Made by a program: the position numbers and the translations under genes | The notes under the pieces: generated by a model | Databases searched by the model: none | Seen by the model: only the letters and a program-made list of their open reading frames with translations | What the model was told of the DNA's origin: nothing | Assembly (NCBI GenBank): GCA_017428945.1 | Contig: JAFRPW010000039.1 | Location: forward strand, 62,001 to 126,000 | From: Bacteroidales bacterium | GTDB taxonomy: Bacteria > Bacteroidota > Bacteroidia > Bacteroidales > UBA932 | Direction of reading: 5' to 3' | DNA: 64,000 bases | Part shown: positions 22,867-46,592 of the stretch, one piece after another | Layout of the letters: each line of letters opens with the position of its first letter | Numbering within the stretch: position 1 is the first letter of the stretch

Positions 22867-24195
22867 TATATAAATATCTTGCACCGTATTAACCAGCGCC
22901 TTGTCATAATTCTTCTCAACCCGGATGTAATTTCCGGTGTATCCGCCCATCATGCCATTCTTTACGGAAGATTCCCACAGGACCTTCTCCGGAAGTCCTT
23001 TCTGAGAGTCCATAAACTCCTGGTGAAGCTCTTTGCAAAGCTCTTCCAGGGCGGCAACTCTTTCTGTCTTTATCGAGTCCTGTACCTGGTCCGGCCAAGT
23101 AGCGGCGCGGGTGCCGGGACGGCGTGAATAAGGGAAAACATGGATGAAAGCAGGGCGTATTTCGCGGAGGAAACGCACTGTCTCCAGGAACAGTTCTTCC
23201 GTTTCTCCGGGAAGCCCCACAATCACGTCGATGCCGAAGAAGACAGCGCTTTCCCCGGGCTTTTCCATCGCCCTGCGGATGTACTCTATCCGGCTTTTGA
23301 AAAGGGCGGTGTCGTATCTTCTGCCTACTTTTCGCAGAAGTGAGTCGCTTCCGCTCTGCAGCGGAATGTGGAAGTGCCTGCAGAACTTGGTGCCGGATGC
23401 AATCCAGTCTACAATCTCTTCCGTAATCAGATTGGGCTCTATGGACGATATCCTGTAGCGCTCGATGCCCTCCACCTCGTTTAGCGCCTTCAGAAGGTCC
23501 AGAAAGCTTTCCCCGGTGCCGCGTCCGAAGTCTCCGGTGTTCACTCCGGTGAGGACAATCTCCTTTATGCCCTTTGCGGCTATCTCCCGGGCCATTTTCA
23601 CAACTTCGCACACCGGGATGCTGCGGCTTCGTCCACGTGCATAGGGGACCGTGCAGTACGCACAGAAATTGTCGCATCCGTCCTGCACCTTCAGGAAGCT
23701 TCTTGTCCTTTCCCCGCTGGAGTACGCCCCGAAAACATCCGAGGATCCGGAGGGTACACCATCCTGAAACTCCGGCTGTGCCGGCCCCTCCCATAAATGG
23801 GCCCCTCCCTCTAAGCCGAGGGTGGCATTGTTTCCGGACAGTGTACCCTCCGGATCCTCCACGGACTCACGCACATTCGTTACCAGACAGGCTTTCTCCT
23901 TGGCGCCAAACACTTTCCAGACGCCTCCAATGGCCTGAAGCTGCTCTTTACGTAGCTCTGCATAACAACCTGTAACAACAATCTTTGCGTTGGGCGCAGC
24001 TTTGTGGGCGCGGCGGATGTAGTTGCGGGATTTCTTCTCTGCGGTTTCAGTGACTGCGCAGGTGTTCACAAGGTATACGTCGGCTACGCCGCTCCACGGA
24101 ACCACCTCCCATCCTGCGTCCAGGAAGGAGCGCTCCCAGGTGGAAGTCTCTGCATAATTCAGCTTGCAGCCAAGGGTTGTGAACGCTATCTTCAT
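22864..24195 (-). CDS. mtaB: tRNA t6A37 methylthiotransferase MtaB
   Basis: A 443-residue radical SAM methylthiotransferase that converts t6A37 to ms2t6A37 in tRNAs reading ANN codons. The N-terminal domain has LGCKLNYAE, NTCAVTETAEKKSR and VTGCYAE. The radical SAM cluster motif is CDNFCAYC in VQDGCDNFCAYCTVPYARGRSRS. The start is set at MKIAFTTLGCK, which overlaps the RsmI-like gene by four bases; the frame upstream lies inside that gene. Residues 113-152, in the linker between the domains, come from a palindromic insertion (23741-23859) and read as low-homology sequence. The TsaD enzyme that makes its t6A substrate is encoded nearby at 31023. Confidence 0.95.
   Translation of the reverse strand: MKIAFTTLGCKLNYAETSTWERSFLDAGWEVVPWSGVADVYLVNTCAVTETAEKKSRNYIRRAHKAAPNAKIVVTGCYAELRKEQLQAIGGVWKVFGAKEKACLVTNVRESVEDPEGTLSGNNATLGLEGGAHLWEGPAQPEFQDGVPSGSSDVFGAYSSGERTRSFLKVQDGCDNFCAYCTVPYARGRSRSIPVCEVVKMAREIAAKGIKEIVLTGVNTGDFGRGTGESFLDLLKALNEVEGIERYRISSIEPNLITEEIVDWIASGTKFCRHFHIPLQSGSDSLLRKVGRRYDTALFKSRIEYIRRAMEKPGESAVFFGIDVIVGLPGETEELFLETVRFLREIRPAFIHVFPYSRRPGTRAATWPDQVQDSIKTERVAALEELCKELHQEFMDSQKGLPEKVLWESSVKNGMMGGYTGNYIRVEKNYDKALVNTVQDIYI
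23741..23859 (-). repeat. Intragenic palindromic insertion, copy B
   Basis: Perfect 19-bp inverted arms (23741-23759 and 23841-23859) enclose 81 bases. On the minus strand the inside contains GCCACCCTCGGC, then TTAGAGGGAGGGGCCCAT, then ATGGGAGGGG (23784-23826). This is the same core as copy A at 45621-45669, although the arms are unrelated. It is in frame within mtaB and adds the linker sequence EDPEGTL to GVPSGSSD. Confidence 0.8.
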
Positions 24196-45129: not shown

Positions 45130-45229
45130 CAGGAAGTGATTGAGTATAAGGCTATTAAGTAAATGTCCTTAGTCTATTTAGTCCAAGGACAATATGTTAG
45201 ATTCCTGAAAATCAATCACTTATTGTCAC
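45126..45229. repeat. 104-base inverted repeat spanning both convergent stop codons
   Basis: Outer arms 45126-45143 and 45212-45229 match in 16 of 18 positions (two adjacent mismatches). A second, nested 7-bp stem joins 45164-45170 with 45185-45191. The left arm contains the lpxB stop and the right arm contains the stop of the methyltransferase gene. It may act as a two-way terminator or be a remnant of a palindromic element. Confidence 0.65.
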
Positions 45230-46592
45230 GGCAGATAATGAGAACCCGACCTTCAGAATCACTATGGGTGCCAAAAATGTGAATTGTGCCGTCGCCGGGC
45301 TTTACGCCAAGGCGTTTTGCAAGTTCCTCTGATGTCATTGGGATGTTGCGGGCTGTGACATCGGCCTTTGGGTAGCGTTTACCGGCTTCTTTCATGGTTT
45401 TGCCGGAAAGAGGGAGTATATCCAATATCTCAAAGCACTTACCAAAAGATGCAAGATCTTCAGGAATTGCCTTTTGGCTTACATACAGGTGTGTATGTCT
45501 GCTTAGTTTGCAGAGTCCGTAGTCACACGGCAAATCAAACGCCCCGGCCTTCAGCAGCGCCTTACCTGGCTCAAATAAGAATTCACCAGAGGAGATGGTA
45601 GTGATATCCACAAACCTGTGGCCACCCTCGGCCGCATAAGAGGGAGGGGCCCATCGCAGATGGGAGGGGTCGCGAAGCGACGGTTTGTGGATATCACTAC
45701 CATCTCCTCCTCCATATACTAATGAAGCGCCTGAATCAATAATAACCGTAATGTGGCAACCTGTATAGCCCTTTTCCAGCAGAAGAAGCAGTTCCTTGCA
45801 CTCGCCGCCGGTGGCAACTACGTGCACTTCACGTACTCCGGGAAGTTGTTTGCACACCAGTGTGATATCAGCCATAGGGGAGAGCTTGAACATGATGTTA
45901 GGGCATGCGTCATACAGCTCCGGAAGCAGTTCAAGCACGTTTGGAGAGCAGTCTTCCAGGCGGAAAACCTTGCGTCCGCCGTCACCGCGCCTTGCCGGAT
46001 CCAGGAACAATACATCCGGTTCAAAGCCACCAAGGATATCCTTGACTGCACCAGGTTCAACCATCCTATTCCTGACCACGACATTCTTCACTCCAAGTTC
46101 CTTGAAGTTGTGTTCTGCCGCCCTGCATAGTTCAGTATCCATCTCATTGTAAAGTACCTCCTCTGCAACCTGGCAGAACGTCCACGCATCCACACCCAAC
46201 CCGCCGGTAAGGTCCGCCACCCTCAATCCTTCCACCACCCCGTCCGGTTTATCCACGGAAACGGGGTGTTTTGGTGGACAAGTGGGCGATTCCCCGGGTT
46301 TGTCCACGGAAATGGCGGTTTTGGTGGATAAGTTGGGGAAGTGAGACAGGAGGGAGGCTTTGTACCGGGCGGTTTCCGTGGAGGAGCACTGTTCTGCGGA
46401 CAGGACTTTGGGATATTGCAAAGAGGGGACAGCGTGCCACTGAGGGACTTTGTGACGAAGCTTTGAGCGGGCCTCCAGTGTGCTCAGGGCAAGGTTCCAG
46501 TCTTCAACTTCAGCTGAGAGGCGTCCGCGCTGCATAGCAAGCGAGGCAATGTCACAGCCGTCGTGGGCAAGTATGAATTCTTTGAAATCCAT
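45216..46592 (-). CDS. THUMP-like class I SAM-dependent methyltransferase, invaded by palindromic repeats
   Basis: A 458-residue protein of a Bacteroidetes methyltransferase group whose C-terminal end resembles a THUMP-like domain, likely modifying RNA. The SAM-binding core is GLRVADLTGGLGVDAWTF, followed by NEMDTELCRAAEHNFKELG and the DPARRGDGGRKVFRLEDCSPN catalytic region. The C-terminal EFLFEPGKALLKAGAFDL and THLYVS motifs are family-typical. Two stretches look foreign: residues 89-114 (SVDKPG repeats, from mini-hairpins 46252-46328) and residues 295-335 (from palindrome 45589-45709). Without them about 391 residues remain, nearer to the homologue length I recall. The -7 box ends 4 bases before the ATG, so the mRNA should be leaderless. 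Confidence 0.85.
   Translation of the reverse strand: MDFKEFILAHDGCDIASLAMQRGRLSAEVEDWNLALSTLEARSKLRHKVPQWHAVPSLQYPKVLSAEQCSSTETARYKASLLSHFPNLSTKTAISVDKPGESPTCPPKHPVSVDKPDGVVEGLRVADLTGGLGVDAWTFCQVAEEVLYNEMDTELCRAAEHNFKELGVKNVVVRNRMVEPGAVKDILGGFEPDVLFLDPARRGDGGRKVFRLEDCSPNVLELLPELYDACPNIMFKLSPMADITLVCKQLPGVREVHVVATGGECKELLLLLEKGYTGCHITVIIDSGASLVYGGGDGSDIHKPSLRDPSHLRWAPPSYAAEGGHRFVDITTISSGEFLFEPGKALLKAGAFDLPCDYGLCKLSRHTHLYVSQKAIPEDLASFGKCFEILDILPLSGKTMKEAGKRYPKADVTARNIPMTSEELAKRLGVKPGDGTIHIFGTHSDSEGRVLIICRDNK
45589..45709 (+). repeat. Intragenic palindromic insertion, copy A
   Basis: Perfect 28-bp inverted arms (45589-45616 and 45682-45709) enclose a 65-base centre. The core 45621-45669 reads GCCACCCTCGGC, then TAAGAGGGAGGGGCCCAT, then ATGGGAGGGG on the plus strand and matches copy B in mtaB. 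Inner hairpins CCCATC/GATGGG and GTCGC/GCGAC are also present. It lies in frame within the methyltransferase gene, in the opposite orientation relative to its host gene from that of copy B. Confidence 0.85.
46252..46278. repeat. Mini-hairpin repeat, copy 1 (in coding sequence)
   Basis: A 27-base element, TCCACGGAAACGGGG to TTTTGGTGGA, with a 5-bp TCCAC/GTGGA stem. It encodes part of the KHPVSVDKP segment and precedes copy 2 at a 51-base period. Confidence 0.75.
46303..46328. repeat. Mini-hairpin repeat, copy 2 (in coding sequence)
   Basis: A 26-base element, TCCACGGAAATGGCGG to TTTTGGTGGA, followed by TAAG like the intergenic copy at 32109. It encodes part of the LSTKTAISVDKP segment. Confidence 0.75.

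Follow-up and report, generated by a model that had tools for sequence, protein, structure and literature searches.

The repeat family described here, core-A, is best explained as a mobile palindrome that is non-autonomous, has a conserved core and carries its own arms, which need only to pair with each other. We give this reading a probability of about 0.5. Core-A recurs in many rumen and gut bacterial genomes, often inside open genes. The observations behind the reading are this spread, a structure with covarying pairs, clean empty sites that hold no arms, paired changes in the two arms, inversion of the core, exchange between alleles and partial deletion. More tentatively, and at less than even odds, we propose that the element has almost no fixed end sequence, that a pseudoknotted core and pairing arms would be required, and that the arms would be rewritten together while the core flips.

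The element in the window and its family

The window, the whole 64,000-nt stretch of DNA that was analysed, was searched throughout by a script for inverted repeats whose arms match exactly over 14 nt or more and stand up to 250 nt apart. Five pairs were found, including one in a gene that we read from its sequence as a methyltransferase and one in a gene that is presumably mtaB, the name given to it in the original prediction. The script confirmed the predicted exact 28-bp inverted arms (100% complementary) around a 65-nt centre in the open methyltransferase frame (Table 1). As predicted, that frame is free of stops and gains about 40 residues (295-335, numbered by hand from the coordinates), which lie in a variable loop of the host protein. 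The core was expected to be common to the mtaB element, and GCCACCCTCGGC, GAGGGAGGGGCCCAT and TATGGGAGGGG do occur there in the same order, on the minus strand at 23785-23826. The accompanying claim that the arms of the two elements are unrelated holds insofar as arms vary, and fails insofar as the family shares a weak arm consensus and some groups of copies share much more. Folded as single-stranded DNA, the whole 121-nt element reaches -44.2 kcal/mol (shuffles mean -16.9; z -10.7), a strength due mainly to the arms. The core alone, folded as RNA, is no better than its shuffles (z -0.25), so the case for a core structure rests on covariation.

Table 1. Features of the two core-A elements in the window and of the gene that hosts the first.
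Feature	Positions	Strand	Description	Basis
Left arm of window element	45589..45616	+	28 nt, exact reverse complement of right arm	
Right arm of window element	45682..45709	+	28 nt	
Core, family A	45617..45681	+	65 nt, oriented +; host gene on opposite strand	
P1 hairpin	45617..45636	+	TGTGGCC-ACCCTC-GGCCGCA	Fold; pair outside GCC/GGC standard in 270/285
Predicted pseudoknot	45625..45644	+	Loop CCCTC (45625-45629) with GAGGG (45640-45644)	Covariation
P2 hairpin	45650..45664	+	CCCATC-GCA-GATGGG	Fold and covariation
P3 hairpin	45669..45681	+	GTCGC-GAA-GCGAC	Fold only
Host ORF	45216..46592	-	458 aa, open	Pfam PG_1098_Fer and Thump_like
Arm of second family A element (mtaB)	23741..23759	.		Inverted-repeat script
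Second element (mtaB)	23760..23840	-	Core and imperfect inner parts of arms	Core comparison
Other arm of second element (mtaB)	23841..23859	.		Inverted-repeat script

The window element is also present, with an identical core and paired arms, on contig C39 of genome G262, and the otherwise close genome G051 has a different repeat in that loop of the methyltransferase. No empty allele was found at the window site, so neither arm can be named native, including the one encoding VDITTISSG that had been taken for native protein. In some other species it is the linker at residues 83-123 of the methyltransferase that has a core-A element. As a whole-genome neighbour G262 was rejected: it looks chimeric, contig C39 being 90-92% alike and other contigs 73-78%. 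A hairpin unit of the form TTTATCCAC-GGAAACGGGGTGTTTTG-GTGGACAAG occurs twice elsewhere in the same methyltransferase gene (window 46240-46340), and four times in tandem in G262; units like these also adjoin locus L003, in a stretch that matched several places in G051.

A 64-nt element query gave nine matches in the element's own genome at E ≤ 10. Seven are core-A copies, each with its own flanking sequence, and another core query also gave 7 core matches, at E ≤ 0.001. The original prediction of a mobile core, unlike repeats with constant arms, agrees with this recurrence across the genome in 7 copies with different arms, and with its recurrence in relatives, where arms differ too. Among the own-genome copies, the arm script found no exact arm of at least 10 nt at L003 and a short arm only at L007. 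The two remaining matches share the last hairpin only and belong to a second, smaller family of the same design, with the core GCATTTGCCCGTACAGGGTCGCGAAGCGACGCGGA, the P3 hairpin in common and arms that differ by site. Five of its 7 places are convincing, namely L006 (G000:C34:27163), L008 (G000:C16:92663), L109, L390 and L471, the last two with similar arms. Within core-A, a core subfamily with CTTGTCCACCCCCGGACAAG and GTAGGGGGAGGGGCCC (L375, L388, L477, L480, L383) mostly has a long P2 hairpin holding CAAGCTTGCTTG; L383 is a related long-P2 form.

Core matches at E ≤ 0.001 occur in 61 of 101 sampled genomes of the genus, the element's own included, and a strict pattern was found in at least 119 stretches of named genome contigs. 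A single genome can have up to 23 matches. Among the 80 matches listed, the organisms are Bacteroidales or Bacteroidia, many from ruminant stomachs, with one Candidatus Coprenecus. Judging by size, fragmentation and titles, most or all of the genomes are metagenome assemblies, in which palindromes assemble poorly, and the copies are not independent. Phages and viral contigs gave no core match at E ≤ 0.01 and 0 stretches with the strict pattern. A search of Rfam 15 with 7 core loci (E ≤ 1) matched no family; its hits were one tRNA gene and, with scores well under their gathering thresholds, three miRNA models, two of them on the hairpin itself. No description of the core-A family was found in the full text of open-licence papers. 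In 1.7 Mb of retrieved loci there are 135 inverted-repeat pairs whose arms match exactly over 15 nt or more. Of these, 122 are core-A-like, and several of the 13 others are diverged core-A; the set is biased, since core-A was the reason for retrieving most of the loci.

Arms measure 5-39 nt in the 121 parsed copies and 20-30 nt in 79 of them. Inside ORFs of at least 80 aa lie 64 of the 121, and inside ORFs of at least 180 aa 56; the coding strand bears the core in 26 of these 56, and insertions use several frames and both strands. Genes are not preferred, since elements lie inside stop-free frames of at least 180 aa less often (64/121) than random windows of the same size from the same loci (522/605). 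Six host proteins were recognised by Pfam: TruB_N, Flavokinase/FAD_syn, Methyltransf_4, Ala_racemase_N, Radical_SAM_N and the PG_1098/THUMP-like pair. Hosts among them probably correspond to TrmB, RibF, YggS and YgiQ.

Structure and change of core and arms

Covariation was assessed over 285 places, one per distinct flank, which are not independent by descent. In the pseudoknot, the two variable CCCnn/nnGGG pairs are both standard in 283 of 285 places (1000 shuffles: mean 236, maximum 245). The P2 hairpin varies in length and sequence within the family, and its first two variable pairs are standard in 222/277 (shuffles mean 92, maximum 113). In P1 the pair directly outside GCC/GGC is standard in 270 places. 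The predicted core consists of P1, the pseudoknot, P2 and P3 with covarying pairs. Mismatch within arms was counted at the 134 sites whose arms reach 18 nt or more. Counting from the inside, at most 3% are unpaired at positions 8-19, a low figure that is partly by construction, arms being detected by their pairing. At the same sites mismatches reach 12% at position 6 and 7% at position 7, often as G-A, and climb to about half by positions 29-30. The arms follow a loose consensus (G-rich, about 5 nt, CYTTCC, GRAAACC), and no constant letters were found across copies at their outer ends. A fixed dyad inside each arm, as a hairpin target, was rejected: over 28 centres its pairing was no better than column composition (z -3.1 to 2.2).

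For copies at different sites, arms are on average 0.33 identical when cores are 0.7 identical; the mean runs from 0.36 to 0.50 with no steady rise at core identities of 0.8-0.98, and stands at 0.56 for cores 0.99 alike (4 pairs) and 0.58 for identical cores (19 pairs). L072, L115 and L161 have identical cores and arms 0.88-0.96 alike at sites that the flank test separates, and six copies in G088 have an arm motif in common, as judged by eye. Among the 14 distinct pairs with identical cores, four have arms with an identity of just 0.25-0.42, against a background of 0.33-0.37, and these count against element-borne arms. In G014, L341 and L344 share arms, and L342, L343 and L345 have near-identical cores with different arms; because of the latter, arms may be made anew at insertion.

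Changes at orthologous sites often affect both arms. The window element and its G262 counterpart, with their identical cores, differ by one both-sided arm change and two one-sided changes at the outer edge. Four both-sided changes and one that unpairs separate L414 from L424, and the ygiQ copies L054 and L078 differ by six both-sided changes, two that unpair and one one-sided change. These comparisons come from seven orthologous pairs chosen by hand, two of which have no both-sided change. Core orientation was compared in 37 orthologous pairs from 16 sites in four related genomes, with both flanks matched. The core is inverted in 2 of the 13 pairs with arms at least 85% alike, in 15 of the 23 with arms at most 75% alike and in the 1 pair between. 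Different arms with inverted cores could also come from independent insertions, of either orientation, at the same tolerant place. Exchange is seen in ribF, where L395 (G183) is a natural recombinant of the L394 (G288) and L404 (G264) alleles, with left arm and P1 from one allele, P2, P3 and right arm from the other, and mismatched arms.

Empty sites, one-armed alleles and the origin of the arms

A total of 82 places came from G056/G252, taken as a pair, and from four genomes related to one another (G183, G264, G220, G288); they were parsed into 72 elements at 70 loci. For 13 sites, counterparts were sought in the other three of the four genomes, with two or three for each. Site A (L368) is empty in G183 and G288, site B (L376) in G183, G220 and G288, and site C (L393) in G183, G288 and G264. 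All 8 of these empty relatives have neither arm, with flanks 85-97% alike. Overlap at the junction is 2 nt at A, 0 at B and 1-2 nt at C, and at B a further 17 nt next to the left arm are absent. Site D (L397), with a poorly aligned left flank, agrees in having neither arm in G220 and G288. No stop-free frame longer than 109 aa runs across sites A-D. The armless empties at A-C indicate that arms come with the element rather than from the host, and the predicted arrangement of one native arm and its inverted copy was thus not borne out at the cleanest sites. The other counterparts are more complex. At L407, three hold 10 or 31 nt that are unlike the arms, as judged by eye. At L396, two are copies with a part deleted (L474, L476), and L480 belongs to another core subfamily; those of L409, L382 and L421 are other core subfamilies or longer relatives; and L411, L415 and L426 have as counterparts REP-like repeats, a recombinant (L472) and a longer element (L457).

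The foremost alternative, which we consider unlikely, is that snap-back synthesis makes an inverted copy of the neighbouring 20-30 nt of host DNA when the core inserts. It looked strongly supported by trmB in G148 and by truB, and then failed at the clean empty sites. In trmB, G148 has one arm and no core where G063 has the core and both arms, one the inverted copy of the other (flanks 92-93% alike). G068 carries the same insertion as G063, yet G148 is nearer to G063 (93.3% vs 86.7%). The piece that G148 lacks is flanked by GAAAA at either end, and deleting it yields the exact G148 sequence; G148 therefore reads as a loss. At L413 (G183), core-less G264 (L453) has a left-arm-like stretch (p 0.012) and core-less G288 (L451) a right-arm-like one (p below 0.002, 0/500 shuffles as good). 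These one-armed alleles raise the odds for host-derived arms and lower those for element-borne arms, but the two remnants lie in opposite orientation to each other, so at most one can be native. We tentatively read the three core-less one-armed alleles at the coding sites trmB and L413 as deletion remnants. The truB allele of G051 fits the right arm (p 0.055) better than the left (0.76), and may lean towards a native right arm, which would count against element-borne arms. Identical cores with different arms also favour host derivation; the arms common to copies at different sites, like the 8 armless empties at three loci, speak against it. Host-derived arms, as originally predicted, are not borne out at clean sites outside long ORFs and retain some backing from the core-less one-armed alleles at trmB and L413. 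On these sequence comparisons, arms appear to arrive with the element at the cleanest sites, and the coding sites are mixed.

Filled and empty alleles were also compared by a shuffle test of 50 pairs, most of them uninformative. Its rows L009/L016 (the same place) and L174/L232 (a truncated copy, not an empty site) are artefacts. Comparisons of trmB with L318, L319 and L326 reached p ≤ 0.005 for one or both arms in some cases; they were dropped, since these alleles themselves hold palindromes. Other repeats occupy such places as well. In the trmB loop, L306 and L307 hold repeated TGGACCAGGTCCA / TGGACCTGGTCCA palindromes, a further repeat family. REP-like repeats of the GTCATTCCCGG...CCGGGAATC and TCGAAATGACA type (L233, L257, L464, L454, L447) occupy, in relatives, the very loops that elsewhere hold core-A or the second family. 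It seems that different repeat families land in the same protein loops.

Improbable, in our estimate, is a selected structured RNA or regulatory stem, in which selection on the transcript keeps the pairing and mobility is secondary. Its attractions are a core more conserved than its flanks (identical in G262, where flanks are 87-92% alike), the paired arm changes at orthologous sites, the covariation of the pseudoknot and the recurrent, often G-A, mismatch at arm positions 6-7. It sits poorly with insertion in both gene orientations (26/56 on the coding strand), with cores inverted between relatives, with absence of the element from relatives at several sites, with the empty Rfam result and with a core that, as RNA, does not outdo its shuffles. 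Least probable is that the core enters pre-existing hairpins, both arms being old host sequence: five core-less trmB alleles (L318, L319, L321, L322, L326) have 6-12 bp palindromes at the same place, and cores of different subfamily and orientation stand between related arms, but empty sites A, B and C have no stretch resembling either arm, and partly deleted copies keep arm remnants (L474, L476), so that short palindromes may be remnants too.

Relation to known repeats and a possible mode of movement

The arms of Rickettsia palindromic elements (RPE) are constant. The portion of the RPE literature consulted describes palindromic repeats of about 150 bp, in frame in genes, with nearly half of the copies in ORFs and a conserved peptide said to be encoded (PMC10969869). 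Core-A resembles them in its apparent in-frame insertion in genes, with 56/121 copies in ORFs of at least 180 aa and host proteins of conserved families. Compared by description only, it differs in its conserved centre and variable arms, its Bacteroidales hosts and its use of several frames and strands. REP-type repeats are described, in the extract at hand, by conserved stems and end tags (PMC3733652). Like REPs and REPINs, core-A elements are small, hairpin-forming, non-autonomous repeats in many copies, in a genus where 53 of the 101 sampled genomes have a Y1_Tnp match (E ≤ 1e-5). Unlike REP/REPIN-RAYT systems, core-A lacks a constant terminal tag or stem, its arms vary, and conservation lies on the loop side, in 60-130 nt that include a pseudoknot; a 20-40 bp palindrome with a constant GTAG/CGTC tag at one end, which defines REPs, is not what core-A presents. 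MITEs are likewise short, non-autonomous and mobile, with inverted repeats at their ends, but core-A has no constant terminal inverted repeat, its arms are not conserved across copies, and no clear target-site duplication is seen (overlap 0-2 nt at sites A-C). On the best reading, the core-A family is a REP/RPE/MITE-like kind with a conserved folded centre and variable matching arms. Perfect inverted repeats are also known within translated genes of Nematomorpha mitochondria, where, in the account as excerpted, both arms encode conserved protein (PMC6649704); core-A shares the inverted repeats within translated genes, but sits in variable loops and has a core common to its copies.

On the preferred reading of a mobile element with its own arms, the conserved part would be a single-strand structure of 60-130 nt made up of P1, the pseudoknot, P2 and P3. 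The 20-30 bp arms would be part of the element and subject to one rule, mutual pairing, and arms and core would insert as a whole unit. A polymerase would then copy one arm from the other by template switching, which would make the arms perfect and would also flip the core; such switching would explain, with no need for capture of host DNA, both the flipping of cores and the joint drift of arms that stay perfect, and selection for pairing may add to arm matching. Template switching between the arms of an inverted repeat is described as homogenising the arms and inverting the spacer (Abraham and Hazkani-Covo 2021, PMC8604942, in the part available), and switching at inverted repeats also figures in an excerpt of PMC7202029. 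Patterns between close relatives suggest that such events have occurred in core-A, and arm homogenisation and spacer inversion are what core-A shares with the PMC8604942 cases; those, in the extract, are single short yeast repeats with spacer inversions of 2-5 bp substitutions, whereas core-A is a dispersed mobile family with a spacer of 60-130 nt.

The element might be moved by an enzyme acting on hairpin single-stranded DNA, perhaps a Y1/HUH transposase. Y1_Tnp is found in 40 of the 61 genomes with the element and in 13 of the 40 others (element only 21, neither 27; Fisher p 0.002, a value that ignores completeness and kinship). G014 and G088, which hold several copies with near-identical cores, have no Y1_Tnp match at E ≤ 1e-5, and they count against Y1 as the mover. 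No autonomous partner of the element was encountered. Within genes, the element would persist only at tolerant protein loops, so that the same places would be reused and resemble hot spots.

In REP-type repeats, as excerpted in PMC3733652, the stems are conserved; in core-A the centre is conserved and the stems drift. Paired arms of this kind can be mistaken for host-derived sequence, and if the arms did prove host-derived, the family would illustrate the capture of host DNA. Sites at which close relatives differ serve as natural replicates for the perfection of inverted repeats, the inversion of spacers and the gain of protein loops. If ends defined by shape alone are the right reading, core-A would amount to a REPIN turned inside out, recognised by its single-strand shape and not by terminal sequence, and would keep supplying housekeeping enzymes with in-frame loop insertions.
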